This document shows, in pieces, positions 1 to 14,192 of a DNA stretch of 14,359 bases. Position numbers and translations under genes: made by a program. Below the pieces are notes generated by a model that saw only the letters and a program-made list of their open reading frames with translations, was not told the DNA's origin and ran no database searches. The stretch lies in contig JAQUEZ010000153.1 in assembly GCA_028684915.1 (NCBI GenBank), positions 1 through 14,359 on the forward strand, written 5' to 3'. Each line of letters opens with the position of its first letter. The stretch's first letter is position 1. Source of the DNA: Desulfobulbus sp. (GTDB lineage Bacteria; Desulfobacterota; Desulfobulbia; Desulfobulbales; Desulfobulbaceae).

Positions 1-20
1 TCTGATTTTGCCATGGGCAT
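1..20 (-). CDS. Start of a further gene downstream of moxR (partial, runs off the window)
   Basis: The moxR stop codon and an ATG share one base (TGATG), the usual sign of translational coupling. The ATG opens a frame reading M-P-M-A-K-S before the window ends; a second ATG lies two codons in. In many bacteria the gene after a MoxR ATPase encodes a DUF58 or von Willebrand factor A protein that works with it, so that is the best guess. Only six codons are visible, so identity is inferred from gene order alone. Confidence 0.4.
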
Positions 21-1057
21 CAGTACGGCTCGATCATTTTCAGGATTTCCTGAACGAGCATGTCGGCGTTGATCTGTTGAGACATCGCAGTGCTGTTGAG
101 CAGTATGCGGTGCCTGAGCACATGCCCGGCGCAGGTCGTTACATCGTCAAAATTGACAAAGTCCCGGTGCTGGCTGAACGCAAATGATTTTGCCAGAGCC
201 AGAAGCGATTCGGACGCCCGGGGAGACGCCCCGAGCCTGATGTACTGATGGATATCCGCATGCAGCTTTTGTGCGGCATAGGTATCACGGGGCCGTGTGG
301 CAATACAGATATTCAATATGTAGCTCATGACTTTCTGGCTCACCTTCACCTGGTCATGGATGAGCTGCTGGATGGCCATTATGTCATCAAGGGTAAGAAC
401 CGTTTGTATCTCAGCTTTGAGCTGGTCAAAGTTGGTATTTTTTCTCAGTATGAGCTCAAACTCCTCATCCTTCTGCGGATAGCCGACATCGTATTTCACC
501 ATGAAACGGTCAACCTGGGATTCCGCTAACGGATAGGTGCCAATCTGCTCAATGGGGTTCTGCGTAGCAAGCACCATAAACGGATGCGGGATATCGTAAC
601 GCATGCACTCAACCGTCACTTCCTTTTCCTGCATCGCCTGCAGCAGGGCAGATTGAACTTTCGGCGAAGCACGGTTTATTTCGTCGGCAAGGAAAATATT
701 ACAAAAGATGGGGCCAAAATAAAATTCGAACTTCCTATCCTTCTCATTCCACACCATAGTGCCGGTGATATCGCTGGGCATCTTGTCGGGAGTGAACTGG
801 AAGCGCTTGAAATTGCCGCCAATCACGTGTGCGAATGTTTCAACCGCAAGGCTTTTTGCCAGCCCGGGCACTCCCTCAAGCAGTATATGACCCTTGGAGA
901 GAAACGTATAAATCATCAGGCTGATCATCTCTTCCTGACCAATTACTACTTTTGCAATTTCAGCTTTTATCTGCTGAATCTTGTGAGCGTACCGGTCAAA
1001 AAGCTCTGTTGTGCTGCCTCCGGCTGCCATAGTGTCCTGCATAGAGATTCCCTTCAT
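20..1057 (-). CDS. MoxR-family AAA+ ATPase
   Basis: A cytoplasmic AAA+ chaperone-like ATPase of the MoxR family, 345 residues, the usual family length. Visible motifs are Walker A GVPGLAKS (about 62-69), Walker B IFLADEINR (121-129), sensor 1 in ATQNPIE (about 165-170) and the RLGASPRAS segment typical of the C-terminal lid. MoxR proteins generally help mature or insert cofactors into partner complexes together with a DUF58 or VWA protein; the specific partner is not visible. The first ATG overlaps the permease stop (ATGA), which suggests coupling. A second ATG five codons in (1042) has a better ribosome binding site (AAGGGA, 7 nt away), so the true start could be either. It is the fifth gene of a minus-strand cluster with an ABC transporter. 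Confidence 0.93.
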   Translation of the reverse strand: MKGISMQDTMAAGGSTTELFDRYAHKIQQIKAEIAKVVIGQEEMISLMIYTFLSKGHILLEGVPGLAKSLAVETFAHVIGGNFKRFQFTPDKMPSDITGTMVWNEKDRKFEFYFGPIFCNIFLADEINRASPKVQSALLQAMQEKEVTVECMRYDIPHPFMVLATQNPIEQIGTYPLAESQVDRFMVKYDVGYPQKDEEFELILRKNTNFDQLKAEIQTVLTLDDIMAIQQLIHDQVKVSQKVMSYILNICIATRPRDTYAAQKLHADIHQYIRLGASPRASESLLALAKSFAFSQHRDFVNFDDVTTCAGHVLRHRILLNSTAMSQQINADMLVQEILKMIEPY

Positions 1058-2082
1058 ATATATTGAAACTGTTTTCTGTGCTTTACAATCAGATAGATAA
1101 AAAATGGACCGCCGAGCATTGAAGTAAGAATTCCTACCTTCAGATCAACTGCTACGATAAGCCGCACAAAAAGGTCTGCGTAGATAATAAAAACCGCTGC
1201 CAGCATCCCGGAAAAAAATATCAGCTTCCGGTTATCCGGCCCGACAAGGCTGCGCATAATATGAGGTGCAACCAGCCCGACAAAACCGATAACACCCGAG
1301 ACGGCAATGGCACCTCCGGTTTCGATTGAAGAAAATAGCAGGAGCCAGTTGCGGGCACGCTTTATGTTGACCCCAAGGTTTGATGCGGTTTCTTCTCCGA
1401 GCATGAGAATGTTTAGATCCTTGGCAAAAAACAGGGTACCCAGCAGCGCTATAGCAGTTGTCGGAAAGACTATGGACACATGCTCCCAGGAGCGGTTATT
1501 AAGGTCACCCATGAGCCAATTCACAATCACCCGACCCACGTCGAACTCCCTGGTACTCAGGGTGATAATAAAAGACGTTAGAGCGCCAAGCACCAGATTA
1601 AGGGCAATGCCTGCAAGCAGCAACGTTGATATGGAAGTCCGCCCCCGCGAGGTCGCAATGGCAAAAACCAGGATCAGGGTGAGTATGGAAAAAATGATAG
1701 CTGCACACGGCAGCGCTATCAGCGAACCTGATGCCAGACCCAGGTAAATGACCAGCACGGCGCCCAGCGCAGCTCCCGAATCAATGCCCATAACACCGGG
1801 GCTGGCCATGGGGTTCTTGAATATACCCTGCATGATCGTACCTGCTCCGCCAAGGGAAAAACCTACCAGAAGAGCAACCAGAAGGCGCGGAAGCCGGCCA
1901 TCCCAGACAATGGTAGCTTCAACGTCATTGATGGTGCCGGCATAGAGCCCCAATTTCGATAAAATAATAAAGAGCACATGGGAACCGGAAATCGGCCACG
2001 AGCCTGATGACAAAGCGAGAAAACCTCCCGCAATAATCAGGGCTAGCAAGGCTGAAAATATATAAAAGTCCTTTTTAATCAT
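1054..2082 (-). CDS. FecCD/BtuC-type ABC transporter permease
   Basis: The inner-membrane permease of a type II ABC importer for iron-siderophore, heme or corrinoid substrates, 342 residues. The protein is hydrophobic throughout and fits the roughly ten membrane helices of the FecCD family. Family signatures are the MQGIFKNPMASPGVMGI segment near residues 85-100 and the GVIGFVGLVAPHIMR segment near 264-278, which includes the loop contacting the ATPase. The start overlaps the stop of the binding-protein gene by ATGA, and its own stop overlaps moxR in the same way. The substrate cannot be told from the permease alone. A corrinoid is attractive because an adenosylcobalamin-dependent enzyme is encoded next door, but this is inference. 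Confidence 0.93.
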   Translation of the reverse strand: MIKKDFYIFSALLALIIAGGFLALSSGSWPISGSHVLFIILSKLGLYAGTINDVEATIVWDGRLPRLLVALLVGFSLGGAGTIMQGIFKNPMASPGVMGIDSGAALGAVLVIYLGLASGSLIALPCAAIIFSILTLILVFAIATSRGRTSISTLLLAGIALNLVLGALTSFIITLSTREFDVGRVIVNWLMGDLNNRSWEHVSIVFPTTAIALLGTLFFAKDLNILMLGEETASNLGVNIKRARNWLLLFSSIETGGAIAVSGVIGFVGLVAPHIMRSLVGPDNRKLIFFSGMLAAVFIIYADLFVRLIVAVDLKVGILTSMLGGPFFIYLIVKHRKQFQYI

Positions 2083-3119
2083 AATGGCTTTTGGGACTTC
2101 CGGTAGATGAGGCCAGCGAGAAAATCCGCACTCAGGAGAATGTACTGGGATTCAACCCTCAGATACACACTGGGAACGTAATAAACAGAACCGTTTTTAA
2201 TGGCCTGGGCGTAGGACAGCACCCGGTTTGACGTAAGAAGCTCTTTAAGCTTACTGCGGCCGGGAACAATAATTACGTCCGGATTCCACTTAAGCAGGGT
2301 TTCGTAGTCAATCTGCGACCAGGATTTTATTCCCTGCTCAGCCCCGACATTGACTGCACCGATTATTTTGCAGATCGAATTGAAGTTGGATGATGCGCCG
2401 GGAACATAACCGCCCTCATCATAGTACAGAACACGGACCGGATGGTCTCTTCGCGGGAGCTTACCCTTCAGCTCCCGGATCTTTGTCTCAATAAGCGTTA
2501 CCAATGCCTGCGCATTACTCTCCTCACCGATAACATCTCCCATGAGTAGAATCTGCTTTTTTATGGATTCAATTGTTCCAAAATAGCCAAGGTCAAAGCT
2601 TTGGATCTTTGCCTGTTTAAGTTTTTCCTTGAAATCCGCACTGGAATAAAAAACGGTGAAAACCAGGTCAGGCTGATAACCGATAACCAGTTCTGTCTGC
2701 TTCGATTTAAAAATCGGCCCTTTCTCTCGCACCTTTTCAGCTATGAAGCTTGAGTCAGGATCAGCAGAAAACTCATTAAATGCAATCAATCTATCACGCG
2801 GGCAGATTGCCCATAATATTTCTGCAACGCCCACTGCGTGCGGTATTATCCGCAGCGGCTTCTTTTTTAGCACAAAGGTTTTTGCTTCCTGGTGGAACGT
2901 ATCAGTTTTAAAATCATATATTTTATAGGTATAGCGTACTTCCCGAGGCCATGGTCCCTCAGCTTTTGTCTTGCCCCTGACAAAGCTCAGCTCATTTTTC
3001 AACCTTTCCAAATCAAGAGGTGGAACAGTTTTTTGATCGTTACCCGCCGCTAAAGATACAGCGGCAGCAATGAGACAGTATGCTAGATAAGTGACTGTAA
3101 TTATGAGATATTTACGCAT
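2079..3119 (-). CDS. Periplasmic BtuF/FecB-type substrate-binding protein
   Basis: A 346-residue periplasmic binding protein of the Peripla_BP_2 type (iron complex or corrinoid). Residues 1 to about 26 form a signal peptide (MRKY, a hydrophobic core, then LAAG). The two lobes are recognisable: PLRIIPHAVGVAEILWAI opens the first, followed by ELVIGYQPDLVFTVF, and the second contains SWSQIDYETLLKWNPDVIIV, the common 'the ligand domain's place where the protein sits' pattern of this family. No lipobox cysteine follows the signal peptide, so it is probably soluble. A 60-70 residue stretch before the first lobe (KNELSFVRGK and onwards) is longer than usual and unexplained. The ribosome binding site is weak. 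It would hand its ligand to the permease encoded directly downstream. Confidence 0.9.
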   Translation of the reverse strand: MRKYLIITVTYLAYCLIAAAVSLAAGNDQKTVPPLDLERLKNELSFVRGKTKAEGPWPREVRYTYKIYDFKTDTFHQEAKTFVLKKKPLRIIPHAVGVAEILWAICPRDRLIAFNEFSADPDSSFIAEKVREKGPIFKSKQTELVIGYQPDLVFTVFYSSADFKEKLKQAKIQSFDLGYFGTIESIKKQILLMGDVIGEESNAQALVTLIETKIRELKGKLPRRDHPVRVLYYDEGGYVPGASSNFNSICKIIGAVNVGAEQGIKSWSQIDYETLLKWNPDVIIVPGRSKLKELLTSNRVLSYAQAIKNGSVYYVPSVYLRVESQYILLSADFLAGLIYRKSQKPL

Positions 3120-3145
3120 GGTAGCAGTTCCAGGTATATTTTATT

Positions 3146-3439
3146 TAGTTTCCATCCGGAAACTCCGGATGTGAAACTAGTGGTTTCCAATTTGGAAACG
3201 AAGATATTTTTGTCCTGACAAGAAACTTTTGCCTGCAAAAGTTGACAGCGAAGGCTGCCCGTAGGGCGAGTCCTCCGGGCGAGTCAAAATCAAGGGATTG
3301 TGCGGAGACGTACTATCTGTATGTCGCACAAACAAGACTGCTGATTGACGCAGTCAGGGCGACAATCCGGCCTCACCGGATTGGACAGCATAGGCTGCCT
3401 GTGGCCGAATCAAAAAAAACCGTTTCCGGATGGAAACTA
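3146..3439 (+). repeat. Hairpin-mosaic intergenic element with TA-flanked inverted ends
   Basis: No gene is seen between the ATPase and the binding-protein gene; the space is a ~290-bp element. Its ends are exact 18-bp inverted repeats, TAGTTTCCATCCGGAAAC (3146-3163) and its reverse complement (3422-3439), each itself a GTTTCC-N4-GGAAAC palindrome. Between them lie many short hairpins: 3183-3199 (8-bp arms), 3211-3220, 3224-3243 (9-bp arms), 3298-3331, 3336-3355 (6-bp arms) and 3363-3383 (8-bp arms). An imperfect direct repeat of about 31 bp is present near 3241-3271 and 3381-3411. The terminal TA on both sides would fit a TA target duplication, as in MITE-like elements. The strand is arbitrary. 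Multicopy status is inferred. Confidence 0.65.
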
Positions 3440-4198
3440 TTTATAAAAATCGAGGAAGGTGGCCTCATTGAATGTATATTCCCTCACATTTACCTCAAAA
3501 ACCTTTTTAATGTTTTCCTCAGCAAATGCACCCTCCGCAGTGCCCGAATAAAACAGCTCCCCACGATACAGTATAGATATTGTATCACAAAACTTTCTTG
3601 CCAGATTCAGATCGTGGATGGTCACCAGTGTGGTTTTGCCCTGTTCCTTGAGTTCGTATAAAATAGAAACAATCTCCAGCGTGTGTTTGACATCAAGCCC
3701 GGAGGTTGGCTCATCAAGCAGTATCAAAGACGCCTCTGTCGCCAGGGCTCTGGCTATTATTGCCAACTGGCCCTCTCCACCGGACAATTCATTGATGTTT
3801 CTGTCTCTCAAAGGATAAATATTGGTCTGCTGTAATGCCCTCTCGATTATTTCCCGGTCTTTTTGCCGCAAACCTTCAAACCTTCCCAAGTGCGGGTTTC
3901 GTCCCATGGAAACAATGTCAAATACCGATATCGGAAAACCGATGGCTGTGTTTTGCGGAACCAGGGTAACCAGCGTGCTCAGCTCTTTTCTTGGAATTAC
4001 AGTATAGTCTCTACCATTTATTATTATGGAACCGGATTGGGGTTCCCAGATTCTGCAGATATTTTTTAACAAGGTGGATTTACCGGAACCGTTCGGCCCG
4101 ATGATGCCATGAATCTTGCCGGGCTCAAAACACGCGGAGATGCCATCAAGAATCTTTTTGTCATCAAGTGAAAAATCAATATTTTTAATTTCAAGCAT
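3437..4198 (-). CDS. ABC transporter ATPase (FecE/BtuD type)
   Basis: The cytoplasmic ATPase that powers the permease, 253 residues, standard for FecE/BtuD proteins. Motifs: Walker A GPNGSGKST (34-42), Q-loop glutamine 82, signature LSGGEGQ (138-144), Walker B LILLDEP (158-164) and the switch histidine 195. The signature is slightly unusual: a glycine replaces the more common glutamine or arginine after LSGGE. The start lies 41 bp after the membrane-protein gene, so the two are probably co-transcribed; the ribosome binding site is poor. The stop codon TAG coincides with the first three bases of the hairpin element that follows, so insertion of that element may have set or shortened the C-terminus. 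Confidence 0.93.
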   Translation of the reverse strand: MLEIKNIDFSLDDKKILDGISACFEPGKIHGIIGPNGSGKSTLLKNICRIWEPQSGSIIINGRDYTVIPRKELSTLVTLVPQNTAIGFPISVFDIVSMGRNPHLGRFEGLRQKDREIIERALQQTNIYPLRDRNINELSGGEGQLAIIARALATEASLILLDEPTSGLDVKHTLEIVSILYELKEQGKTTLVTIHDLNLARKFCDTISILYRGELFYSGTAEGAFAEENIKKVFEVNVREYTFNEATFLDFYK

Positions 4199-4239
4199 AG
4201 GTTAACCGGAAGCCGGACGCCAGAGAAGCAGGGCGAAAT

Positions 4240-5022
4240 TCACGAGCACAGTTTTAATTTGTAGGTAACGGGAAGAATAAATTTAGAGATAACGACGAAT
4301 AAAAATCCACTATAAACTGTCATGCTTAGTATTGGTGCTGTCAGATCAGGAGAAAACTTAGTGGTTATGCCTAATGCTGTCCAGATAAAAAGCTGCCCCA
4401 ACAGAAGCTGAAAGTTTTGAGCCAGGGTATAAATGACCCAGAAATTTTGTGCGAGTTTTACGTTGTCGCCTCTGCGGATTTTGATTTCGATGATTTTAAA
4501 CCAGGTTCTTCCTTCGATTATTTGTGATGATCCGTCGCACACATGATGCAGTAAATAAACCGCCACCAGTAGATGCGCCTTAAAGGATACGCCTGCAAAA
4601 AAGTACAGAAATACCGGCGGGAAGCAGAGTAAAAGGCATACAGCGCCCAAGGACTGTCCCATAGCAATTCCTACATGTACTCTGATCAGACGTCCGATCT
4701 GAATCTTTATATCACGCGCCGCTTCCAGGTGGTCGATAAATTCAGAAGTATAGTTGCTTGCGATCATGGTTATGCCCGGATACGCATATTTCACAAGGAC
4801 ACCAAGAATAGCAGCAACTTTGAATTCCTGTTCTGCCATGGAAAACATGGTATAGAGGATTACGCCATCAAGGATGTTTTTCCCAACAGTATAGAAAATA
4901 TTACCGATCTCCCCATACCGATAAAAGGGAACTGAGAGTAGTGCTGCAATATAAAGTTTTATTTTCTGGGATAGGGGAGGGGCGATGTGGTCAGAATGAG
5001 CTGTCGGTTGCTCTTTATCCAT
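4240..5022 (-). CDS. Unrecognised multi-pass membrane protein at the head of the ABC cluster
   Basis: I do not recognise this 260-residue protein. After a polar N-terminus of about 20 residues (MDKEQPTAHSD...) it shows roughly five or six hydrophobic segments, near 51-61, 69-89, 115-143, 149-162, 194-220 and 229-250. A charged loop around 170-190 (IIEIKIRRGDN) is probably cytoplasmic. It has no visible catalytic motif. Repeated helices without nucleotide-binding motifs suggest a transport accessory or permease-like role. It precedes the ATPase gene by 41 bp on the same strand and lies after the eutBC terminator, so it is likely the first gene of the ABC transporter operon. No strong ribosome binding site is seen before the ATG. 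Confidence 0.75.
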   Translation of the reverse strand: MDKEQPTAHSDHIAPPLSQKIKLYIAALLSVPFYRYGEIGNIFYTVGKNILDGVILYTMFSMAEQEFKVAAILGVLVKYAYPGITMIASNYTSEFIDHLEAARDIKIQIGRLIRVHVGIAMGQSLGAVCLLLCFPPVFLYFFAGVSFKAHLLVAVYLLHHVCDGSSQIIEGRTWFKIIEIKIRRGDNVKLAQNFWVIYTLAQNFQLLLGQLFIWTALGITTKFSPDLTAPILSMTVYSGFLFVVISKFILPVTYKLKLCS

Positions 5023-5092
5023 TTTCAGAAGCTCGATTCATTCTGTGAGTCTAATGATATTGCAGACCGCCAGTTGGACAGGGATGAAAGAA

Positions 5093-5131
5093 AGCCCCAA
5101 AGAGGTCTCGGTACGCTACCTCTTTGGGGCT
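5093..5131 (-). terminator. Rho-independent terminator after eutBC
   Basis: A perfect 14-bp inverted repeat (AGCCCCAAAGAGGT and its complement) with an 11-nt loop starts ten bases past the eutBC stop. On the minus strand it is followed by TTTCTTTC. It should end the amine-system transcript and separate it from the ABC transporter genes downstream. Confidence 0.85.
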
Positions 5132-5140
5132 CAACCTATT

Positions 5141-7426
5141 TTAGATTGCCATCATTTTTTTGAGTAATGTGACTGTCTGTTTAGCTGCATCTTCCGGCTT
5201 TGTAGCCTGCTTGGAGATACCGCACACCACTTTCACGATATCGTGGTCGACCTTCTTCTCTGCCCAGAGTTTTGCCTTGGGCGCAGCTATATACACCGAG
5301 AAGGCGTTCTGGCCGGTACCCGGACGCTCGCCGATTATGTGGACTACGGCACGGGGCTTATTCGGGTCTGCCTTGTCGAACAGTATGTCTCCAACCATGT
5401 AGCCTGCACGCACACGGCCGCTGGTGATAATAAGGTTGCTCTTATCAACGGTCATGCCGGCAGCGTGAAGATCTTTTCTCAACGCCGTGATATATGTCAG
5501 TGCCTGCTCGTGACCCATGATTGAATTGGCATTTAAACCATCAGATATGACAATCTGCACATCCGGGGCTTTGCCATGCCACGAATCTCGCAGCTTTTGC
5601 AGGGTCGCCACTGACTGTTTATTCAGTTGTTCACCGGACTCAGGATGTACGATGTAGTTTTCACGATCCTTGGACAAGGTGGCAAGCTGAACTGAATCAG
5701 GAACACTCTTGATAAACGCTGGAGTAAACTCCGCCCAGATAGCTTTTTTCGCATCAGCGTAGAGTTCCCGTATTCTCTTGTCAAGTCCCGGATTCAGATC
5801 CCAGGTATTTTTTCCATACCCGGAGGCCAGAGGCACCTTGTTTCCGGTCTTAAGCCAGGTAGTATAAATCGAATCAAACTTCTTTTTGCCTTCAGCAATT
5901 ATTACTTGTTGAGCCCGCTTGTCGCCCTTGGCTACGCGGTACTGATAATACACCCAGACGGGGTCGCCGAAATGTTTCGTCGGCTTGCCGTTCTTATCGA
6001 TGACCTGGATACGCTTGAAGAAAGCCCACATGGCATCGTTTACCTTGAAGCCGAATTTGTTACGGAGGCGCACATGGTCCTGATAACTGGTGGTCAGGTA
6101 GCTGAGCATTGGGTCATTCCTGGTGGGAAGGGCCATGAGATAGGCCGGATTTGCCGGCATAATCTGATCCTGGCACCACTGGAGATCATCAAGGCTTACC
6201 GACATGTGCAAGGTGGAGCAGATATCAAGACCGGAAGTAAGTCCCTGCAGTTTGCCCATCAAGATATCTTCAAGGCAGCAGCGAACTAACTGCTCTCTGG
6301 TCCTGAATACTTCCGGTCCGATAAAACCTGCAACATCATTAAAATGGGTATATGCGCCCTGTGGTTGGACTTCAGCAAGGATCTGTTTCAACCCTCGGGC
6401 AAAACCGTACTTGCGGGATTCAAGCACCACCATGTCAACGCCCTCTGCACCACCATTGGTGAAATCAGAGCCCTGACCGGTCTCGTAATACAGCCCGTAT
6501 CTTTGCCCCTTGCGGGATTTTGCAGCGTTGACCATCTTAGCGACGGTAATGTCAAATGTTTTATTTGCCACATCAGTTCCTGCAAGACTCTGGAACTCAA
6601 AATCAACCAGTTCCGGCTCCTCTTTAAACAGTTCCCCCTGAATGTCAATATGGGCTAAGACGCACCAGGGAATAGTCCCCTTTAATTTGAACGTATCAAC
6701 CACATCCTTGAGGGATGCTTCCACTCTTGCAGTACTTTCTTTTGTCCCGTCCACCGGGTTGGTCCCGATGACTAAATCCCCTACTGCGTAGGAGAAGCTG
6801 TCAAGCACCTGCCACATAATTTCTTCAGGGTCATCAGTGGGGGAATTTGGTTGAATGCGAGCGCTCAGGTAGCCTTTTGCACCGATCTTGGTACCAGGCA
6901 GCGGATTGAAGATTTTACTGTCGACCGCAATCAGCTCCTTATTGCTCATAAGCTTGGGAAGACAGCCAACCACCTCGCTGTTCATACCGAACATGACAGC
7001 CTTGATTTCAGATTCGGATTTGGTCAGGAGATAGGTCTTCATCTGCCCCATAGTCCAGTTTTTTATTTTGTTGTACTGGGCAGTATTCGTTGATTTGGCG
7101 ATGAATTTATAAAGGTCGTCATTAAGCAAGGGGTGATCGGAGATATCCTTGATTTTGGTATTAGCTAAAAGCTTCCGGGCATTTTCCCTGCTGGCAGCAG
7201 TGTCGGCAGCAACGCCGATAGTCTTGTCACCCTCCTTGAAGGCATTTGACGCACCGATTACCTGCTGATAGAGTTTCTGGTCAAAAGAACCATTAACTCG
7301 TTTTATATAGGAAAAAACATCTTCGCCGGGTTTAACGTTCTTAATGGTGATAGCTTCACTGTTCGTACTGAACGCTAAAACCCCGAAAAAAAGCATCGCT
7401 AGGAACAATATAATTCGTTGTTGCAT
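5141..7426 (-). CDS. eutBC: Exported fusion of ethanolamine ammonia-lyase large and small subunits (EutB-EutC)
   Basis: A 761-residue single-chain form of ethanolamine ammonia-lyase, the adenosylcobalamin enzyme that converts ethanolamine to acetaldehyde and ammonia. Residues 1-25 are a classical signal peptide (MQQR, core IILFLAMLFFGVLAF, cleavage after SEA), absent from ordinary EutB. EutB homology runs from about 31 to 490 and ends at HFGDP. The E. coli substrate residues R160, Q162, N193, E287 and D362 correspond to R190, Q192, N223, E315 and D401, all kept. A stretch of about 85 residues (490-575) is unassigned. EutC homology follows at about 580-761, with VQIVISDGL (623-631), ERPGTGQ (700-706) and C735 matching the EutC cysteine near the cobalamin. 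The usual ~100-residue EutC N-terminus is missing or replaced. The start has a strong GGAGG site 9 nt upstream. It lies 49 bp after the porin gene. Confidence 0.9.
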   Translation of the reverse strand: MQQRIILFLAMLFFGVLAFSTNSEAITIKNVKPGEDVFSYIKRVNGSFDQKLYQQVIGASNAFKEGDKTIGVAADTAASRENARKLLANTKIKDISDHPLLNDDLYKFIAKSTNTAQYNKIKNWTMGQMKTYLLTKSESEIKAVMFGMNSEVVGCLPKLMSNKELIAVDSKIFNPLPGTKIGAKGYLSARIQPNSPTDDPEEIMWQVLDSFSYAVGDLVIGTNPVDGTKESTARVEASLKDVVDTFKLKGTIPWCVLAHIDIQGELFKEEPELVDFEFQSLAGTDVANKTFDITVAKMVNAAKSRKGQRYGLYYETGQGSDFTNGGAEGVDMVVLESRKYGFARGLKQILAEVQPQGAYTHFNDVAGFIGPEVFRTREQLVRCCLEDILMGKLQGLTSGLDICSTLHMSVSLDDLQWCQDQIMPANPAYLMALPTRNDPMLSYLTTSYQDHVRLRNKFGFKVNDAMWAFFKRIQVIDKNGKPTKHFGDPVWVYYQYRVAKGDKRAQQVIIAEGKKKFDSIYTTWLKTGNKVPLASGYGKNTWDLNPGLDKRIRELYADAKKAIWAEFTPAFIKSVPDSVQLATLSKDRENYIVHPESGEQLNKQSVATLQKLRDSWHGKAPDVQIVISDGLNANSIMGHEQALTYITALRKDLHAAGMTVDKSNLIITSGRVRAGYMVGDILFDKADPNKPRAVVHIIGERPGTGQNAFSVYIAAPKAKLWAEKKVDHDIVKVVCGISKQATKPEDAAKQTVTLLKKMMAI

Positions 7427-7475
7427 ACTTTGGGTCCTCCTTTATCAATTGTTAGGTGCAGAATGGCATCTTCAG

Positions 7476-8339
7476 CTAGATTGCCAGGTCCAGAATGATC
7501 CCCCCATAGACGAAGTTGTCCTGGCGATGATGGAATAGGCCTTCGCTGTTGTCCCTGATGCGTTGTGCCGCGTCTCCACTGAGAGCAAACGAGTACTGTA
7601 GATTCGGCTTGATCGAGAGGTAGTTGTTCAGGGGGATATTCAGGCCGGCCGAAACATTGCCGTCATGAAAATTGGAGAAGTCGGAGTCCGACTTGTCGTG
7701 CATATAACTGACCCATCCGCCCAGATCCAAGGACCAGTCCTTGTACACGGCGAAGCTGTGGGATACTCCAAGACTGAAGTACCAGGCTTGTCCAATCTCT
7801 ATTTCGTTATAGATACTCAAAGTTGGTTTAAGAAAGGTATCCAGCCCGAGACTCAGAAAGAGTTCCTGGTTTTTGGTATCCTTGATAGTTCCATCTGCCT
7901 CGCCCGCGGTTGGCTGGTAGTCGTAAAGAATCCATCCCAGAGAATAATTCAGTTTCCACGGCTCATAGGAGTTGCTGTACGAGACTGTCACGTCTGTTTC
8001 CTGCAGTTTAAAATGCCTATCCTCGATCCCTGATCCAAAGTTGGTATCCAGATCGGCCCACAGGTTTACGGCAAACCCCTTGTAGCCGATAGTCATGGTG
8101 GGAAAGACGACCAGGCTGTCCCTGCTCAGTTCATATCCACGCCAGATGTATTGAGAGTAAAGCGATACGTTGAGGTCGGCGGTAAGGTCCTCCGGTATCA
8201 TTTTTCCGGCGGGTTTCGGCGCCTCGGCCGTCAGACACGCTGGATTCACTGCCACGTCCTCTGCAAAGGCATACGTCCCCAGACCCATTCCAATGATAAT
8301 AAGGAAACTCAAAAATATTGTCTTAAAAGATGCCTTCAT
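7476..8339 (-). CDS. Putative outer-membrane beta-barrel protein (TorF-like porin family)
   Basis: A 287-residue exported protein. The start at 8339 is chosen because GAGGAGG lies 6 nt upstream and the protein then begins with a signal peptide (MKASFKT, hydrophobic core, cut after AFA at about 26). An upstream in-frame ATG at 8417 would add 26 polar residues before the signal. The mature part alternates hydrophobic and polar residues, as in beta strands: an opening strand with SLYSQYIWRGYELSRD, then TIGYKGFAVNLWADLD, regular aromatic girdle residues, and a last strand, FVYGGIILDLAI. This resembles small outer-membrane proteins of the TorF type. Its place between a binding-protein gene and eutBC suggests it lets the amine substrate through the outer membrane. 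Substrate and pore activity are inferred. Confidence 0.8.
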   Translation of the reverse strand: MKASFKTIFLSFLIIIGMGLGTYAFAEDVAVNPACLTAEAPKPAGKMIPEDLTADLNVSLYSQYIWRGYELSRDSLVVFPTMTIGYKGFAVNLWADLDTNFGSGIEDRHFKLQETDVTVSYSNSYEPWKLNYSLGWILYDYQPTAGEADGTIKDTKNQELFLSLGLDTFLKPTLSIYNEIEIGQAWYFSLGVSHSFAVYKDWSLDLGGWVSYMHDKSDSDFSNFHDGNVSAGLNIPLNNYLSIKPNLQYSFALSGDAAQRIRDNSEGLFHHRQDNFVYGGIILDLAI

Positions 8340-8397
8340 TTTGTCCTCCTCGTCATTTTCGTTCAGTTTTTTCGCTCCATTACTTCGATACCCCTGA

Positions 8398-8511
8398 TTA
8401 GCTGAAAACTTCTTCATTCGCCGCCTGAAGGCGACAGCTGTTCACGCTCTTCCCGACCATTTCCCCGATGATGGTGGTGGTTTCCCTGGCAGCATCCCTG
8501 CTGTACGTCAT
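8398..8511 (-). CDS. 37-codon ORF overlapping the binding-protein stop; possible gene remnant
   Basis: An ATG overlaps the stop codon of the binding-protein gene (ATGA) and opens 37 codons, MTYSRDAARETTTIIGEMVG and onwards, ending EEVFS. A diverged copy of its central part lies upstream of the binding-protein gene at 9794-9847, where it is interrupted by a frameshift and stops. The residue pattern loosely recalls the C-terminal coiled coil of methyl-accepting chemotaxis proteins. It could be a coupled small protein or, more likely, a remnant. I cannot assign a function. Confidence 0.3.
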   Translation of the reverse strand: MTYSRDAARETTTIIGEMVGKSVNSCRLQAANEEVFS

Positions 8512-9611
8512 TTTTTTCTCAACTTTTTTGCCGCCTCCCACATCTCTCCGTACGCCTTTTCCGTCTTTTCGCTCATGACCTGCCAGATCGCAACAGTCTT
8601 GAAGTAGGCATTGTCACCCACATGAAAGAGGCTTTTTTCCGTCGGAGTTAACAGGTCTCCTGCAACATTTACAACCGGTGAAACGCCCTGATTCTTGACT
8701 ACCGCAGCCTGGGCTTTGGGCGAAAGCTGAAGGTTGATCCATTCTTCACAGAGCTTTTTCTTCAATCCTGTCGCTGCCTTGGTAATGCACCAGTAGTCAA
8801 TCCAGGCCGTTCCCCCTTCTTTGGGAGCGGCAATTTGCCACTTCCCGCCCTTTTTGTTTGCCTGCGCTGCTGCGAAGCCCCAATCCGTAGCCAGGGCTAA
8901 CCGGGGAAACTCATCAGGGTTTGCCGATCCGTCCCAGAGGCTGTAAGCATTCTGGGCCAGAACGTTCAGCTTCTCTTGAACCTTCTTGCGGTCCAGTTTG
9001 TCGATATCGAATATCTGATCGTATCGATACCCCAGAGCGAGTGCGGTAATCCATATATTGCACTTGGGAAAGTTGTTATTGATGGTGTATTTCCCCTTGT
9101 ATTTGGGGTCCCAGAATATGTTCCAGCTTTGCGGGGTCTTTTTGACAACTTCGGTATTGTAATCCAGCCCGTAAGGACCGCAATTGTAGGGAACTCCGTA
9201 CCGTTTATGTTGATAGATAAGAGACTTATCTGCCGCAAAAAAAGGAATCATTTTTTTCGCGTTGGGGATGTTTTTCAAATCCACCTCTGCGAGCAGGTAG
9301 TTCTTCTTCTTAAAGCAGTTGAATCTGGGCGTCTTGGCCAGATCCGCCGGCGGAGAAATAAGGTCAGCGGTTCCATTCTTCGCCGCATTGTAAAATTCAT
9401 CCTGATCGGTCGGATAGTGGGTCTTCACATCGACGTCGATCTTATATTTCTTCTTTACCAGATCTTTAAATTCCTTCACGATCGTGGCATCTGCATACCC
9501 TTCCCAGCAAGTGATCCGAATGGTCTCCTGCTGGGCAGCCCGGGAAGCATTGATCCCCCAAAAAGCAACCACGATGAAAATGCCGATGGACAACAGGGAT
9601 ATCCTCTTCAT
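8508..9611 (-). CDS. Periplasmic amine-type substrate-binding protein (PotD/PotF-like)
   Basis: An extracytoplasmic solute-binding protein of the spermidine/putrescine family, 367 residues, with a signal peptide (MKRISLLSIGIF..., cut near SRA at 22-25). The start at 9611 has GGAGAAG 8 nt upstream. An ATG ten codons earlier (9641) also has a GGAGGAG site, but would place polar residues before the signal. Aromatic and acidic residues match the PotD ligand box: W36 and Y39 in CWEGYAD, and W270-x-D272 in TAWIDYW. The ligand is therefore probably a small amine; ethanolamine or a related amine fits the operon, but is inferred. No permease or ATPase of a Pot system is in the window, so it works with proteins encoded elsewhere or acts as a periplasmic carrier. 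It is the first gene before the porin and eutBC. Confidence 0.87.
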   Translation of the reverse strand: MKRISLLSIGIFIVVAFWGINASRAAQQETIRITCWEGYADATIVKEFKDLVKKKYKIDVDVKTHYPTDQDEFYNAAKNGTADLISPPADLAKTPRFNCFKKKNYLLAEVDLKNIPNAKKMIPFFAADKSLIYQHKRYGVPYNCGPYGLDYNTEVVKKTPQSWNIFWDPKYKGKYTINNNFPKCNIWITALALGYRYDQIFDIDKLDRKKVQEKLNVLAQNAYSLWDGSANPDEFPRLALATDWGFAAAQANKKGGKWQIAAPKEGGTAWIDYWCITKAATGLKKKLCEEWINLQLSPKAQAAVVKNQGVSPVVNVAGDLLTPTEKSLFHVGDNAYFKTVAIWQVMSEKTEKAYGEMWEAAKKLRKK

Positions 9612-9706
9612 AGATTCTTCTCCTTTCCATTGATCACCCATGGACTCCTCCAGCCAGACATTGATCAGCTGGTATTATAATTCAGGCCTATGATCTTTGC
9701 TGCAAT

Positions 9707-9903
9707 CCTTCGGAGCGCCGGTGCGCCCCGAAGGAAACAGTCTAAACAGCCATTTAACGATCACTTCAGTCGCTACCGTTAGGACGGCTGATGTTTACGC
9801 TCTTCATGAGTATTTCCCTGAAATCGTGATGGCTTCCCTGGCCGCCTTTCTGGAGGGGGGCCAGGTGGAAGCTGCGATAGTACACAAAAGTTTCGTACTA
9901 TCG
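9707..9903 (-). promoter_or_regulatory. Structured 5' leader upstream of the amine-binding protein gene
   Basis: The ~390 bases between the candidate promoter and the binding-protein start have no intact gene but three strong hairpins. These are 9875-9903 (9-bp perfect arms CGATAGTAC/GTACTATCG), 9832-9872 (6 + 6 bp with a 2-nt bulge, GCTTCCCTGGCC side) and 9707-9734 (12-bp arms, one G-U pair on the plus strand, loop CGGT). None has a following T-run, so they are not plain terminators. I could not match them to a known riboswitch; no cobalamin-riboswitch B12 box is seen. Confidence 0.35.
9794..9847 (-). repeat. Degenerate second copy of the 8441-8495 sequence
   Basis: This stretch matches 8441-8495 at roughly three bases in four, with a one-base indel in the middle. 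On the minus strand both spell a similar peptide (SRxAARE...), but here the frame breaks and hits stops. The two copies lie on either side of the amine-binding protein gene. They are best read as gene-remnant repeats. Confidence 0.4.
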
Positions 9904-10006
9904 TGATCGATCTTTTCTCACCCGATTCATACCCCGTGGGAGTGGTAATATCGGCCGAATAGGAAGTGTGTGGCCCGCACGCTTAAGGATGCGATGTACA
10001 GAATTT

Positions 10007-10042
10007 ATTGTCTAACTAAATTCAGTATTGTCAAGATACTGA
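10007..10042 (-). promoter_or_regulatory. Candidate promoter with its -35 box inside a palindrome
   Basis: On the minus strand a perfect TTGACA (10034-10029) is followed after 16 bp by GACAAT (10012-10007, four of six consensus bases). The TTGACA lies in the centre of a perfect 7-bp inverted repeat, TCAGTAT-N7-ATACTGA (10022-10042). A repressor bound there would block the promoter. It points toward the amine-binding protein, porin and eutBC genes. Confidence 0.45.
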
Positions 10043-10115
10043 GTTTGATTCTTATTAAAATTTTTACCAAGATGGAAAGAAGCATCTATCCGATCCTGGA
10101 AATGATGTGCGGTTG

Positions 10116-10193
10116 GGCGCGGCAATATCTGCAGGATTGAGAACGATCTAGCCCCGGGATTCTGAAAAATGCAAAGGCGGTCGATTGGCCGCC
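10116..10193 (+). repeat. Imperfect ~79-bp direct repeat, copy A, with terminator-like hairpin
   Basis: Matches 11055-11133 at about 70% overall, best in GGCGCGGCA at the left, ACGAT in the middle and GCAAAGGCGG with the hairpin at the right. The hairpin is AAAGGCGG(TC)-GATT-(GG)CCGCCTTT, followed on the plus strand by TTTT overlapping its arm, so it may act as a terminator. The sequence before the hairpin could be a small RNA, but no promoter was identified. Confidence 0.5.
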
Positions 10194-10291
10194 TTTTGAT
10201 TGAAATACAGGGATTGTCCTGGTCCCCCTATTCCACGAAGTGTGTAGCTCTGACACCCACAACTTATGGCCCTCATGTTTCCGCCTCAATA

Positions 10292-10313
10292 AAATACTGC
10301 CAAGGTAGTATTT
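10292..10313 (+). promoter_or_regulatory. Palindromic operator 1 of the hip-like relic
   Basis: AAATACT-N8-AGTATTT, a perfect 7-bp inverted repeat. Its centre is 50 bp from that of the second palindrome, close to five helical turns, as expected for cooperative binding by a HipB-type repressor. Confidence 0.55.
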
Positions 10314-10342
10314 CATTCAGCCCGAAGCAACCCTGAGCTTTT

Positions 10343-10362
10343 AATACTGTCCGGGCAGTATT
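10343..10362 (+). promoter_or_regulatory. Palindromic operator 2 of the hip-like relic
   Basis: AATACTG-N6-CAGTATT, a perfect 7-bp inverted repeat sharing its half-site with the palindrome 50 bp upstream. A GGAGG ribosome binding site (10368-10372) and an ATG (10378) follow directly, so this looks like the autoregulatory region of a toxin-antitoxin operon. Confidence 0.55.
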
Positions 10363-10377
10363 TTAATGGAGGATGGA

Positions 10378-10906
10378 ATGCCTAAAACAACCAAGCCGAT
10401 GCCAAGGTTTCTTTGCAGCGCTTTGGGGAACCGGTTCTGGTCGTCGAGCGGTTCGATCGACGCTGGCTCGGGGGTAAAGTAGACAGGTTGCATCCGATCG
10501 ACGGCTGCCAGATGTTCGATCTGCCGCCAACCTACAAATATGAAGTCCCTTCGGCAAGGCGGGGATCGAGGTGGCGCCAAGCTACGATCTCTTGAACATC
10601 GGGATCTATGGGTATGAGTTCGAACGGGATTTGGCCATGGCTGTCGGAGACGAGTTTGTCGCCGAGAAGGTCATGCCGTATGACCTGGCGGAATTCTGTG
10701 ACGCAAGCAATCTGCCGTTTCGCCAGGTTGTGACCAGTCTGAAAAATCTTTGTACGGCGACCATCGGCCGTATGGGAAGTCTGCCATTGGGTGATGTTCG
10801 GACCGGAGAGGAAATGGATTTTGCCCAGGATCTGATCGAAAAGGTCAAGGGGACTGCCGAGCGGCTCCTGGTGATTGCCGGAGAGCTTCCGCTGGTCAGG
10901 CTTTAA
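10378..10906 (+). pseudogene. Remnant of a hipBA-type operon (HipA kinase fragments)
   Basis: HipA-like serine/threonine kinases are toxins inhibited by the HTH protein HipB. Here a good GGAGG site precedes ATG 10378, but that frame (MPKTTKPMPRF...) is lost after 34 codons and may be the first codons of a former antitoxin. In another frame, about 10407-10545, a HipA middle segment is plain: LQRFGEPVLVVERFDRRW, then RLHPIDGCQMFDLPPTYKYE. In a third frame, about 10553-10906, the HipA C-terminus follows: FGKAGIEVAPSYDLLN, then ERDLAMAVGDEF, ending at a stop after PLVRL. The N-terminus and the catalytic core between KYE and APSYD are gone. At least two deletions are implied, so no kinase can be made. 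The HipA assignment rests on these family segments. Confidence 0.7.
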
Positions 10907-11054
10907 CCTGATTTCGTGAGCATACAAAACAGAGGTCCAGGGGGAAGGTTTGTTACGCAACAAGAGTGGCAAGGAAAGACCTGGCTCCAAGAAGCCTTGA
11001 CGTAATCCCGGCAGTAGTCGACGGGAAATGGAAGACTTCGATCCTTTGGCGCCT

Positions 11055-11133
11055 GGCGCGGCAGTAATAGCGAGATCGGGAACGATTGTGCCCTGAGTAT
11101 TGTGAAAACAGCAAAGGCGGCCAATTGGCCGCC
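11055..11133 (+). repeat. Imperfect ~79-bp direct repeat, copy B
   Basis: Second copy of the sequence at 10116-10193, about 940 bp away, same orientation. The two copies bracket the hip-like relic. It ends in a perfect 20-bp palindrome. No gene is seen between the end of the relic (10906) and this repeat. Confidence 0.5.
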
Positions 11134-11134
11134 T
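11115..11134 (-). terminator. Hairpin downstream of the radical SAM gene
   Basis: AGGCGGCCAATTGGCCGCCT is a perfect palindrome 33 bp past the radical SAM stop. On the minus strand TTGCTGTTTTC follows, a weak T-rich tail, so it probably terminates that gene. It is also part of direct repeat copy B. Confidence 0.5.
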
Positions 11135-11167
11135 GGTGAATTAAGTATACGGTACCTCGACCTGGCT

Positions 11168-12559
11168 TTACTGCAGGCACCTGAACAGCCCCTTCGACCA
11201 AAAACAACTTCCGCAGGGTACGGCGTTGACAAAGCAGTCGTGTTCGAAATCCTCCTTGTACACGTTGTCGCATGGGGTTAGGTTGCAGTCGGAACAGGTG
11301 GAATAGTCCTTTCGCAGAACTTCTTTCCGGTGCTTGATGAAGGCCGGGCTATTCCAGATCTCTTCTATCCCCTTCTCGGCCAGGTTGCCGAAAGACTTGT
11401 TGTTGACGTATCTTTTCTGCCCATAATACCAGCAGCTGAATTTGTGCCACAGGAAGTAACAGTTGTGGACGTCGCCGTTCCAGGAAATAAAAGCGCTCCC
11501 GTTGTCGACAAAGTCACACCCGTTATTGTTTTTCGGTATGATTGCCGGAAGGGACAGGTCAAGGCCGATTTCCCTTGCCGTCCTCTCTGCTTCCGCGAAA
11601 ATCTGTGCCAACCGCTCCAGCCACTTTTCGTCCCTCGTCATAAGATTCTTCATGTGAAACGATATCCCGCGAGCTCGTCCTTCGGCCTGCATAGCCGTAA
11701 CGAAATCGACTACCCGTTGCTCCTCCGGCGACCGCAGATAATTCCACCTGACTTTGAAGTAGGTCTCCAGGTCTATCCTCTCCCTCTCTGCCCGCTCCTT
11801 CCATTCCTGGAAAAACGCAAGTGCCTGCTCTGAATTGAGGTCATAGGCAATTTTTGTGGCATGCTCGCTGTCGTAAGGAAGAAGATGGGTAACGATGGCA
11901 AACGACGCTCCCTGTTTCGCCGCCCACCGCAATACCGACGGCAGCTCGTGGGCGTTGTCGCGCATCACCACAAATTCGACGCCGATCTGGAGATCGCGGC
12001 CGGCCATTGTCTTTGCTTTCCCGAGTGCGGCAAATGCCCTTTCCATATCCTGAACTTCTCCACCTTCCCGTATGTCACGGAAGACGTCCTCAGACAGGGA
12101 GTCCATGGACAGACATATTCGGTCAAGACCGGCTTCGACCAGTGAGGCGGCACGGACTTCATTGAGGTCGAGGCCGTTCGATTGGAATCCGATCCAGCTT
12201 CCCTGCGGCATCGCTGCTTTGGCTTTTCGAATGAAGTTTTCCAGTTCCGGGTGCAAAAGAGGTTCGCCGATCCCGTTCAGGACAAGAGTCTCAAGAGAGG
12301 GAAAGGCCGGTTCCAAGGCGGAAAAGACGTCAGACAACATATCTCCGTCAATGATCCCGCAGTCTTCGGTTTGTTTCACACACATGCTGCACTTCAAGTT
12401 GCAGCGGGTCGTAGTTTCTACGAAAAGTCGTGAAGGGAACAGGCGAAATGCAGCAACCTCGTTTGCGTCTTCTCCTGTAGTGCGGGAACCATGGCCGTTT
12501 TCAGGTACATCCTGTTGTGTCCAATCTTTCTCTTTTATAGCCAATTGTCCCGGGGTCAT
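11168..12559 (-). CDS. Radical SAM/SPASM protein, probable metalloenzyme maturase
   Basis: A 463-residue radical S-adenosylmethionine enzyme with a C-terminal SPASM-type region. The radical SAM cluster motif is C53-x3-C57-x2-C60 (TTRCNLKCSMC), with the GEP-type SAM motif GIGEPLLHPE (about 97-106). The C-terminal part has further cysteines at about 348, 367, 376, 422, 425, 430, 442, 449, 452 and 461, enough for two more Fe-S clusters; the chain ends GSCFWSKGLFRCLQ. This layout resembles the radical SAM/SPASM maturases described in Geobacter beside oxidoreductases, which is a recalled family match. The start at 12559 is chosen over a GTG at 12568 because AGGAGG lies 8 nt before the ATG and overlaps the GTG. 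The FAD oxidoreductase gene precedes it. The protein it modifies is not in the window. Confidence 0.88.
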   Translation of the reverse strand: MTPGQLAIKEKDWTQQDVPENGHGSRTTGEDANEVAAFRLFPSRLFVETTTRCNLKCSMCVKQTEDCGIIDGDMLSDVFSALEPAFPSLETLVLNGIGEPLLHPELENFIRKAKAAMPQGSWIGFQSNGLDLNEVRAASLVEAGLDRICLSMDSLSEDVFRDIREGGEVQDMERAFAALGKAKTMAGRDLQIGVEFVVMRDNAHELPSVLRWAAKQGASFAIVTHLLPYDSEHATKIAYDLNSEQALAFFQEWKERAERERIDLETYFKVRWNYLRSPEEQRVVDFVTAMQAEGRARGISFHMKNLMTRDEKWLERLAQIFAEAERTAREIGLDLSLPAIIPKNNNGCDFVDNGSAFISWNGDVHNCYFLWHKFSCWYYGQKRYVNNKSFGNLAEKGIEEIWNSPAFIKHRKEVLRKDYSTCSDCNLTPCDNVYKEDFEHDCFVNAVPCGSCFWSKGLFRCLQ

Positions 12560-12644
12560 CGCTCGCACCTCCTGTCTTTGATGGTTACACGATAACGATG
12601 TTCCGCATTACTTGCCATGACGCAAATCAAGAAAATGGAAATCC

Positions 12645-12687
12645 GGGACAGATCTATTTATTGCTAATTTGAGAAAAAATCTGTCCC
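12645..12687 (+). repeat. REP-like hairpin with GGGACAGAT ends
   Basis: Perfect 9-bp arms GGGACAGAT/ATCTGTCCC enclose 25 AT-rich bases; the plus strand continues ATTTTT. Similar GGGACAGA-flanked palindromes are scattered through deltaproteobacterial genomes, often with Y1-type transposases, but none is present here. It may also terminate transcription from the plus strand. Confidence 0.45.
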
Positions 12688-12808
12688 ATTTTTCCTAAGG
12701 CGTCGAGGCGCCCCAACTCTGTTCCGTGTGCAAGCATCCCCAAGGCTTCTTCGAGGTTAAAGCCTGAAAATACTGAGTTTATCGGATGCGGACATGTTTC
12801 GGAAATTA

Positions 12809-12847
12809 CGGGAAAGGCCCGTGGGCTAAAACCATGGGCCTTTCCCG
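12809..12847 (-). terminator. Long hairpin after the FAD oxidoreductase gene
   Basis: A 16-bp stem (CGGGAAAGGCCC side) with a 7-nt loop begins 6 bases past the stop codon. It has one mismatch on the minus strand and no T-run, so it may slow or stop transcription, or protect the 3' end of the message. Confidence 0.5.
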
Positions 12848-12853
12848 CACCGA

Positions 12854-14068
12854 TCATCCCGCCTGCTTCAGCCGTTTGAAATCGAAGCCCTCCTCCATAA
12901 TTTCGTCTTTCTCGTCCGAGATGTCCCTGCCGGTCTGTATCGCATACTGGATATAGTCCGCCCCCAGTGTGTCGCCGAGGAGGACCGCCCCGATGATGGC
13001 GTTGTCCCGCAGCACCAGTTTCCGGTAGACAAGAAGGGCATCATTCACCCGGACAAGGGAGTCGATCTCACCGGCCACGTCCAACTCTCCCATCGCCACA
13101 AGGTCCACCCCCGCGACCTTCAGCTTGTTGGAGGGAACCGTCCCTTCGTATCTCATATCCCCGCCGGCCATATTCACACCCGCCACCCTTCCCTGGGCGG
13201 TCGCGGCGGGCCAGATGCCGTAATATCTGCCCCGGTGCTCAATCATATCCCCTGCGGCAAAGATATCCTCTTGTGCCGTTGCCATCCGGTCATCCACCTT
13301 GACTCCCAGACCAATCTCCAGACCGAGGGTTTTCGCCAGGGCTGTCTCCGAACGGACTCCGGCAGAAACGAGAAGAACTATGTCGGAGTGCAGTTCTGCA
13401 CCTCCTTCGACGGCCACCGAAAGACCGGTTTCCCGGCGTACTATCTCCCGAATCCGCACCCCCAGGTGAAAGGAAAAACCCATCCTTTCCAACTGCGTCT
13501 TGAGCAGGGCAGAGGCGGCAGTATCCGTCTGCCTCGGGAGGAGGCGGTCGGCTGCCTCAATGACGGACACCTCTAGTCCCCTCTTTCTTAGACCGTTTCC
13601 CGCTTCGAGGCCAATGAGGCCACCGCCGATAACGAGAAGCCTGCGGACCGAAGGGAGTTTCGCCAGAATCCGATCCGCGTCGTCGATGGTACGGAGCGTC
13701 ATCACCCCTTCTTCTTCAACCCCTTTGAGGGGAGGAACATTCGACCTACCCCCGGTGGCCAGCAGCAGCCTGTCGTAGGAATAGGAAGATCCATCCCCGG
13801 TTTCAACCGTCTTAGCCGCCGGGTCGACACCGGTCACCTCTGTCTCAAGATGCAGGTCGATAGCGTTCCTTTCATACCACTGGCGGTCATGGAGCGTAAA
13901 ATCCTTGACGGCCTTTTCACCGGCAAGGTACTCCGGCAATGCCGGAACAAAGTAGAAACAGTGCCGACTCTGTGACAGTATCGTGATGGAACCGGCGCTA
14001 TCCGTCTTCCGGATGGCCTCTGCCGCTGAATTCGCGGCAACTCCATTGCCGATAATTACATACTTCAT
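12854..14068 (-). CDS. FAD/NAD(P)-dependent pyridine nucleotide-disulfide oxidoreductase
   Basis: A 404-residue cytoplasmic flavoprotein of the rubredoxin-reductase/NirB-N-terminal type. The FAD-binding motif is IIGNGVAANSAAEAI (5-19), the middle ATGGRSN motif (104-110) follows, the NAD(P)-binding Rossmann motif is VIGGGLIGLEAG (146-157), and the second FAD motif is DIFAAGD (268-274). The N-terminus has no CxxxxC redox pair, so it likely passes electrons to a separate carrier rather than using a disulfide. The start at 14068 has GGGAGG 7 nt upstream and begins directly at the FAD motif; an upstream in-frame start at 14104 would add 12 basic residues without a site. The radical SAM gene follows about 295 bp later. 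The electron acceptor is unknown. Confidence 0.9.
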   Translation of the reverse strand: MKYVIIGNGVAANSAAEAIRKTDSAGSITILSQSRHCFYFVPALPEYLAGEKAVKDFTLHDRQWYERNAIDLHLETEVTGVDPAAKTVETGDGSSYSYDRLLLATGGRSNVPPLKGVEEEGVMTLRTIDDADRILAKLPSVRRLLVIGGGLIGLEAGNGLRKRGLEVSVIEAADRLLPRQTDTAASALLKTQLERMGFSFHLGVRIREIVRRETGLSVAVEGGAELHSDIVLLVSAGVRSETALAKTLGLEIGLGVKVDDRMATAQEDIFAAGDMIEHRGRYYGIWPAATAQGRVAGVNMAGGDMRYEGTVPSNKLKVAGVDLVAMGELDVAGEIDSLVRVNDALLVYRKLVLRDNAIIGAVLLGDTLGADYIQYAIQTGRDISDEKDEIMEEGFDFKRLKQAG

Positions 14069-14143
14069 CCGTTTTCCTCCCTGTCTTCGACAATCACCCC
14101 GCACCGGCAGATGGTATCGAAGCCGATAGAAACAAGTGAGCTA

Positions 14144-14149
14144 ATTCTA
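14144..14149 (-). promoter_or_regulatory. Possible -10 box for the FAD oxidoreductase gene
   Basis: TAGAAT on the minus strand, five of six consensus bases, about 75 bases before the start codon. The -35 region (CTTGCA, 16-bp spacing) is weak. Nothing else stands out between the start and 14180. Confidence 0.3.
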
Positions 14150-14192
14150 CTACATTTTTCGAAGGTGCAAGGGGCAGGTCTTGGAATATATG

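Follow-up and report, generated by a model that had tools for sequence, protein, structure and literature searches.

Ethanolamine ammonia-lyase consists of two separate chains, EutB and EutC, in the solved structures of the E. coli enzyme (PDB 3abo), and the microcompartment-type Eut systems carry out the same first reaction in the cytoplasm, enclosed in a shell. The subject of this analysis is a gene on a contig of Desulfobulbus sp. (GenBank assembly GCA_028684915.1, JAQUEZ010000153.1, positions 1 to 14,359; this whole stretch of 14,359 nucleotides is referred to as the window), in which EutB and EutC are instead joined in one chain preceded by a signal peptide. Its best reading, in agreement with the initial annotation, is an exported and probably active adenosylcobalamin-dependent lyase, unlike the shell-enclosed enzymes. 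The signal is conserved and changes between two export pathways, while both fold and active site are preserved and the genetic context fits. Judged from sequence, the probability that its product is an exported ethanolamine ammonia-lyase is roughly three in four, with periplasmic location and activity as predictions.

Fused EutBC proteins have been seen before. Work with Pelobacter carbinolicus described two of them in 2012, EutBC1 and EutBC2 (Pcar_0491 and Pcar_0467), and its passages on EutBC report periplasmic binding proteins, a multi-membrane protein, a corrinoid-type importer and cobalamin genes, and no eutA (PMC3543383). By that paper's description of the Pelobacter proteins, the window shares with them the fusion, a neighbouring periplasmic binding protein, a multi-membrane protein, a corrinoid-type importer and the lack of eutA. 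Export is not mentioned in its passages on EutBC, whereas the window protein carries an export signal; the paper's three mentions of a signal peptide concern cytochromes, geopilins and a reference. A Pelobacter metagenome-assembled genome (MAG) has two EutBC copies (L052 and L053) whose N-termini look by eye like signals for the general secretory (Sec) pathway, the rule given below firing on L052 only.

Another group of fused proteins (P0242–P0361, the named ones mostly from Acidobacteriota groups) is cytoplasmic; these are also single chains and the tree neighbours of the exported clade, but 117 of 120 have no N-terminal extension. Reductive dehalogenases are corrinoid enzymes exported by twin-arginine translocation (Tat), and so hold a cobamide outside the cytoplasmic membrane, with another fold and chemistry and no adenosyl radical. 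Among the papers listed in searches of the open-licence literature, exported EutBC is described in no title or abstract opening, and for exported adenosylcobalamin enzymes the papers listed were general work on signal peptides and export; print elsewhere is possible. The initial annotation knew of no described case of the arrangement, which does not hold for the fusion, described in the EutBC passages of PMC3543383, and apparently does for export. Exported EutBC is a real and conserved variant of a known enzyme, apparently undescribed.

One Chain with an Export Signal

The open reading frame comprises 761 uninterrupted codons and a stop on the reverse strand, beginning with an ATG at 7426, and its coordinates, strand and length had been given correctly at the outset. 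Its features are as follows.

5141..7426, reverse strand: EutB and EutC (ethanolamine ammonia-lyase) in one chain of 761 amino acids, led by a signal peptide
7436..7443, reverse strand: Shine-Dalgarno sequence AAAGGAGG, nine bases ahead of the start codon
7352..7426, reverse strand: Sec-type signal peptide, residues 1–25 (MQQRIILFLAMLFFGVLAFSTNSEA), predicted cleavage before I26 (by eye, hydrophobicity and relatives)
5975..7270, reverse strand: EutB catalytic barrel, residues 53–484, holding R190, Q192, N223, E315 and D401 (Pfam)
5147..5773, reverse strand: EutC domain, residues 552–760 (Pfam)

Both Pfam domains lie in the single frame (EutB, E = 3.7e-147, 491 bits against a curated cut-off of 25; EutC, E = 5.1e-34, 118 bits against 25.8), bearing out the fusion, and PDB sequences of EutB and then EutC match the chain in that order. 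The chain also passes the NCBIfam EutB subfamily model (638.7 bits; cut-off 554) and does not reach the NCBIfam EutC equivalog model (90.7 bits; cut-off 230); the EutC part is divergent, though Pfam and fold match. In the AlphaFold model, with the parts compared one by one, the folds of both subunits are retained.

The start codon that includes the signal is supported by the Shine-Dalgarno sequence before it. A basic start is followed by a hydrophobic core at residues 5–23, the sole 19-residue stretch of the chain above the hydrophobicity threshold used, and then by NSEA|ITIK, which by eye is a Sec-type cleavage site. AlphaFold confidence is below 50 at residues 18–22 only. Together with its conservation in relatives, these features uphold the predicted 25-residue signal peptide. 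By sequence, then, this is one chain with a Sec-like signal and with substrate residues and fold kept.

Sec and Tat Signals in Relatives

Three protein searches each returned more than 5,000 proteins, and the counts refer to the best 120 of each. Set A comprises 121 close relatives, including the window protein, set B 120 proteins found with L036, and set C 120 found with L067. The Sec rule asked for a basic n-region, a hydrophobic core and a small-x-small site, and the Tat rule for a twin-arginine before a hydrophobic core. Set C (cytoplasmic fused), 11 other non-exported rows (nine ordinary EutBs and two fused) and shuffled N-termini served as controls.

Conservation of the signal in close homologues, named beforehand as a check, was found: the Sec rule was positive in 109 of 121 set-A rows against 1 of 120 in set C, in 0 of the 11 other non-exported rows and in 7% of shuffled N-termini. 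Six of the 12 set-A rows that it missed have a hydrophobic core but a late called start. By eye, a Sec-like hydrophobic signal is in frame in 115/121, the other six having no N-terminus or a late start (late in P0101), and a small-x-small site follows the core in most of the listed rows. Of 19 loci from named genomes (two loci in some of them), the N-terminus is covered in 17, every one of them Sec-like in frame by eye.

A survey of the phylum uncovered a second kind of signal, since in L030, L035, L036 and L037 a twin-arginine signal stands in place of Sec. The Tat rule was positive in 98/120 of set B, 3/121 of set A, none of the 120 in set C or the 11 other non-exported rows, and 1% of shuffled N-termini. 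In set B, 106 of the 120 rows have RR-x-hydrophobic in their first 75 residues (103 once the truncated chance matches P0172–P0174 are removed), and 79 rows have the motif RRxFC. The 17 others were read by eye: 10 are cut short or have a late start, P0150 has KR instead, and the remaining six are full-length without a visible signal. A lipobox-like pattern follows the Tat core in 13/120, including Myxococcus and Pyxidicoccus proteins. A KEGD-like motif lies at median residue 17 in the cytoplasmic fused proteins versus 63 and 77 in the exported sets.

Active Site

The five substrate-binding residues initially listed as kept in EutB, aligned to PDB 3abo with E. coli counterparts that we take to be R160, Q162, N193, E287 and D362, are indeed unchanged in every one of the 115 rows aligned (42 Sec-group, 52 Tat-group, a few of them without a visible signal, and 21 cytoplasmic fused). 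The EutC cysteine C735 fared differently. It is present in the window protein as annotated but is not conserved in the exported clade, with Ser in 8/42 Sec-group and 51/52 Tat-group rows, and was rejected as a conserved catalytic cysteine. Three other cysteines, C155, C383 and C418, are almost exclusive to the exported clade. Two non-exported EutBs, L040 and L050, have Ala at the position of D401, where other aligned rows have Asp; these sequences possibly point to another substrate.

Descent and Distribution

By sequence comparison, the predicted exported proteins, whose signals are of Sec, Tat or Tat-lipoprotein-like kind, belong to one clade. A quick 150-row tree that kept the N-terminal columns places them (123 rows) on one side of a branch with a Shimodaira–Hasegawa-like approximate likelihood ratio (SH-aLRT) support of 100; the neighbours of the clade are 15 cytoplasmic fused rows from set C, and the ordinary EutBs and fused L047, L048 and L050 fall outside. 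A repeat on 83 rows, with the signal columns removed and a mixture model, gave the exported branch a support of 99 and placed a Sec group (95) opposite a Tat group (92). The two trees, both with long branches, disagree on the Sec rows, which form one group in the 83-row tree and not in the 150-row tree. In both, L030 (Tat) pairs with P0117 (Sec) (support 99 and 100), so that the Sec/Tat change must have happened at least twice. If export did not matter, it would be hard to see why one enzyme should switch pathway at one and the same terminus, as the sequences suggest.

The survey covered 395 genomes of the phylum to which a Geobacter MAG (G008) belongs. Matches were found in 36, of which 20 are of the exported type by identity (54–86%; seven known beforehand) and 16 ordinary or cytoplasmic fused. 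Two of the 20, G017 and G350, gave fragments only, and the 18 with visible N-termini are Sec-like in 14 cases and Tat-like in four by eye. One genome, G015, has a fused EutBC without a visible signal (L050, on G015:C150) and two exported copies, so that both forms coexist.

Chains 57–59% identical occur in 25 plasmid records of Sinorhizobium, Ensifer and Pararhizobium, with Tat-type signals in L074 (S. meliloti BL225C) and L075 (Pararhizobium). L074, L075 and L076 are Tat-type EutBCs on Sinorhizobium/Pararhizobium megaplasmids, one record annotating EutB only. The pSymA of S. meliloti 1021, the one replicon of that strain checked by name, is absent from the 25 records, which agrees with the three cobalamin enzymes named for S. 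meliloti in the relevant passages of PMC12013260 and, for Rm1021, of PMC6759758. Named members of the clade include Geomonas sp. RF6 (P0080), Myxococcus and Pyxidicoccus (P0223, P0234–P0237) and S. meliloti strains other than 1021.

Neighbouring Genes

The gene lies in a run of genes on one strand.

8508..9641, reverse strand: solute-binding protein (SBP_bac_6), signal peptide by eye, relative of the polyamine-binding PotF/PotD
7476..8417, reverse strand: Gcw_chp family protein, signal peptide by eye (PF09694, 25.4 bits; cut-off 24)
4240..5022, reverse strand: U260, conserved helical membrane protein directly downstream of EutBC, no family match
3437..4198, reverse strand: ATP-binding cassette (ABC) ATPase of corrinoid/Fe-siderophore type, BtuD-like (corrinoid ATPase model best, 227 bits; cut-off 537)
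2079..3119, reverse strand: metal-chelate/corrinoid-type binding protein, BtuF-like (PF01497)
1054..2082, reverse strand: FecCD/BtuC-type permease (PF01032; best NCBIfam model BtuC, 275 bits; cut-off 461)
20..1057, reverse strand: MoxR-type AAA ATPase, with which the conserved run ends within the window

Conservation was counted over 28 Sec-type loci (some genomes give two), each figure among loci with enough flank. The Gcw_chp gene, which has a better start at Met 8339 with GAGGAGG upstream, precedes EutBC by no more than 200 bp in 16 of 25 loci; its product has no PDB sequence match and is a probable outer-membrane porin. Beside the SBP_bac_6 gene no ABC permease for its product was seen in the window. 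U260 follows within 320 bp in 19/23 loci. It has many invariant charged residues and an AlphaFold predicted local distance difference test score (pLDDT) of 87.6; there was no Pfam or NCBIfam match at 0.001, the best Pfam E across 19 members was 0.099, and Foldseek against the PDB returned nothing at E ≤ 0.001. The top rows were mainly of major facilitator type (ferroportin, LmrP, and FLVCR1 with choline or ethanolamine) at E = 0.2–0.6 and were rejected as unusable evidence for a structural relative. The BtuD-like gene is present in 15/18 loci, and the listed solved relatives of the BtuF-like protein are iron- and heme-type binding proteins. Behind the importer genes of L001 (14064–18270) come MoxR and then DUF58 and VWA-like genes. 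The binding protein, porin and importer were rejected as universal partners, some Sec-type loci and all four Tat-type loci examined being without them.

Upstream of the operon, at 11168–14104, the window encodes a radical S-adenosylmethionine (SAM) protein that exceeds the TIGR04311 cut-off and has a tungsten-enzyme maturase as its second-best model, together with a pyridine-nucleotide oxidoreductase. Both are perhaps aldehyde oxidoreductase accessories, and neither gene was found at other EutBC loci. No riboswitch reached the gathering score in the window. In the Pelobacter MAG a cobalamin riboswitch (L053, 9213–9397) lies downstream of the exported EutBC and precedes genes for a tetrapyrrole methylase, a histidine phosphatase and an aminotransferase-CbiA fusion. 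Locus L060 adjoins acetate kinase and phosphotransacetylase, and the S. meliloti gene lies near a phosphoketolase.

Aldehyde Oxidation, Microcompartments and EutA

An aldehyde:ferredoxin oxidoreductase gene occurs near EutBC in 9 of the 28 Sec-type loci. None of the nine products has a signal peptide in its N-terminus as printed, with L013 called to start early, L061 cut at its 3' end and L054 the most distant. The family was found in all 25 exported-type genomes searched (of 30) and in 9/16 others. Bacterial microcompartment shell genes occurred in 0/30 exported-type genomes of relatives, many of them incomplete, versus 5/16 others; most of these genomes are MAGs, and absences are therefore soft. 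EutA is equally rare in both groups (2/30 versus 2/16), so its absence was rejected as support. The remaining EutA matches are partial, at 18–38 bits in frames mostly of 400–435 amino acids, and are probably FtsA. In G015, EutA adjoins the third EutBC, L050.

Weighing the Readings

Several observations weigh against an exported, active lyase. The crude rules overlap, the Tat rule firing on 3/121 of set A and the Sec rule on 54/120 of set B, so that the Sec rule separates exported from cytoplasmic and not Sec from Tat; L034 is positive by both, and the Pelobacter copy L053 is negative by both. The library Tat profiles, which are short models, stayed below cut-off on 10 Tat-type proteins (sole match L030, E = 8.4), and Pfam gave none. 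P0181, P0182, P0186, P0190, P0196 and P0213 are the full-length set-B members without a visible signal; these are possibly returns to the cytoplasm or misplaced starts. As to context, the PotF-like gene is on the same strand in only 10/21 Sec-type loci, the importer is assigned to the corrinoid type at family level only, and the four Tat-type loci taken from genomes have none of the operon genes nearby. The window itself lacks a gene for the aldehyde oxidoreductase, whose family is also present in genomes without exported EutBC, and EutA does not discriminate. Lastly, we know of no route that takes adenosylcobalamin to a Sec-exported apoenzyme.

Four alternatives were considered. The six signal-less proteins would fit a signal that is an artefact of start choice, or a cytoplasmic enzyme, but the Shine-Dalgarno sequence at the ATG, the in-frame signal in 115/121 of set A and the fact that set B has signals of another, Tat type in that position make this highly improbable. 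An uncut N-terminus could conceivably act as an anchor that keeps the enzyme on one or the other face of the inner membrane; uncut signals do exist, and some of the 13 proteins with a lipobox-like pattern may be membrane-held. Considering the small-x-small site after most set-A cores, and that a swap to a Tat signal would not suit a cytoplasmic anchor, there is little to be expected of this idea. Slightly less probable still is an exported protein that mainly binds cobamide and feeds the neighbouring importer. This would make sense of the importer genes that follow in 15/18 Sec-type loci and of the unexplained cofactor supply, but mere binding has no need of the catalytic residues that are invariant, and no importer is near the Tat-type loci examined. 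The strongest competitor, though an unlikely one, is an exported enzyme acting on choline, 2-aminopropanol or another short amino alcohol instead of ethanolamine. Choline was raised for one of the two P. carbinolicus copies in the EutBC passages of PMC3543383, and positions 361, 412 and 433–435 are among those at which exported forms consistently depart from the cytoplasmic fused ones. Against it stand the invariance of the five substrate-binding residues and the neighbouring oxidoreductase, which fits acetaldehyde.

Proposed Mechanism

If the protein is an exported ethanolamine ammonia-lyase, the chain would be threaded through Sec, lose its signal, and fold and bind adenosylcobalamin in the periplasm. 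Ethanolamine would come in by way of the Gcw_chp-like protein, perhaps with the PotF-like binding protein collecting it, and would be split in the periplasm into acetaldehyde and ammonia, the latter then being taken up. Acetaldehyde would diffuse across the inner membrane to be oxidised by the cytoplasmic aldehyde:ferredoxin oxidoreductase; with the aldehyde made outside the cytoplasm, no microcompartment would be needed. ATP-driven reactivation by EutA would be impossible in the periplasm, and spent cobalamin would therefore leave by exchange, after which the BtuFCD-like importer could carry it back inside to be re-adenosylated.

Cofactor supply is the weak link. Since Tat carries folded proteins, according to the relevant part of PMC3712460, a Tat-exported enzyme could be loaded with its cofactor before export. 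A Sec-exported enzyme would have no such pre-loading and would meet adenosylcobalamin in the periplasm, arriving from outside or via an unknown exporter. Because the importer and U260 are conserved, a supply or recycling loop is possible. More tentatively, and with the odds against it, the Sec-type operon could constitute a dedicated periplasmic coenzyme-B12 cycle in which U260 is a candidate adenosylcobalamin carrier, the importer returns spent cobalamin, C155, C383 and C418 are adaptations to the compartment, and adenosylcobalamin radical enzymes are a widespread class outside the cytoplasmic membrane.

Significance

To our knowledge, adenosylcobalamin radical enzymes are cytoplasmic, because ATP-dependent synthesis and repair of the cofactor take place there. 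A conserved exported clade implies that cells place adenosylcobalamin outside the cytoplasm, and in the phylum sample the exported type is somewhat commoner than the other EutBC forms (20 versus 16 genomes). With named members at hand, periplasmic cofactor supply becomes directly testable. An exported lyase would be an alternative to the microcompartment as an answer to acetaldehyde toxicity, and its sequences suggest that B12-dependent splitting of ethanolamine probably takes place outside the inner membrane.
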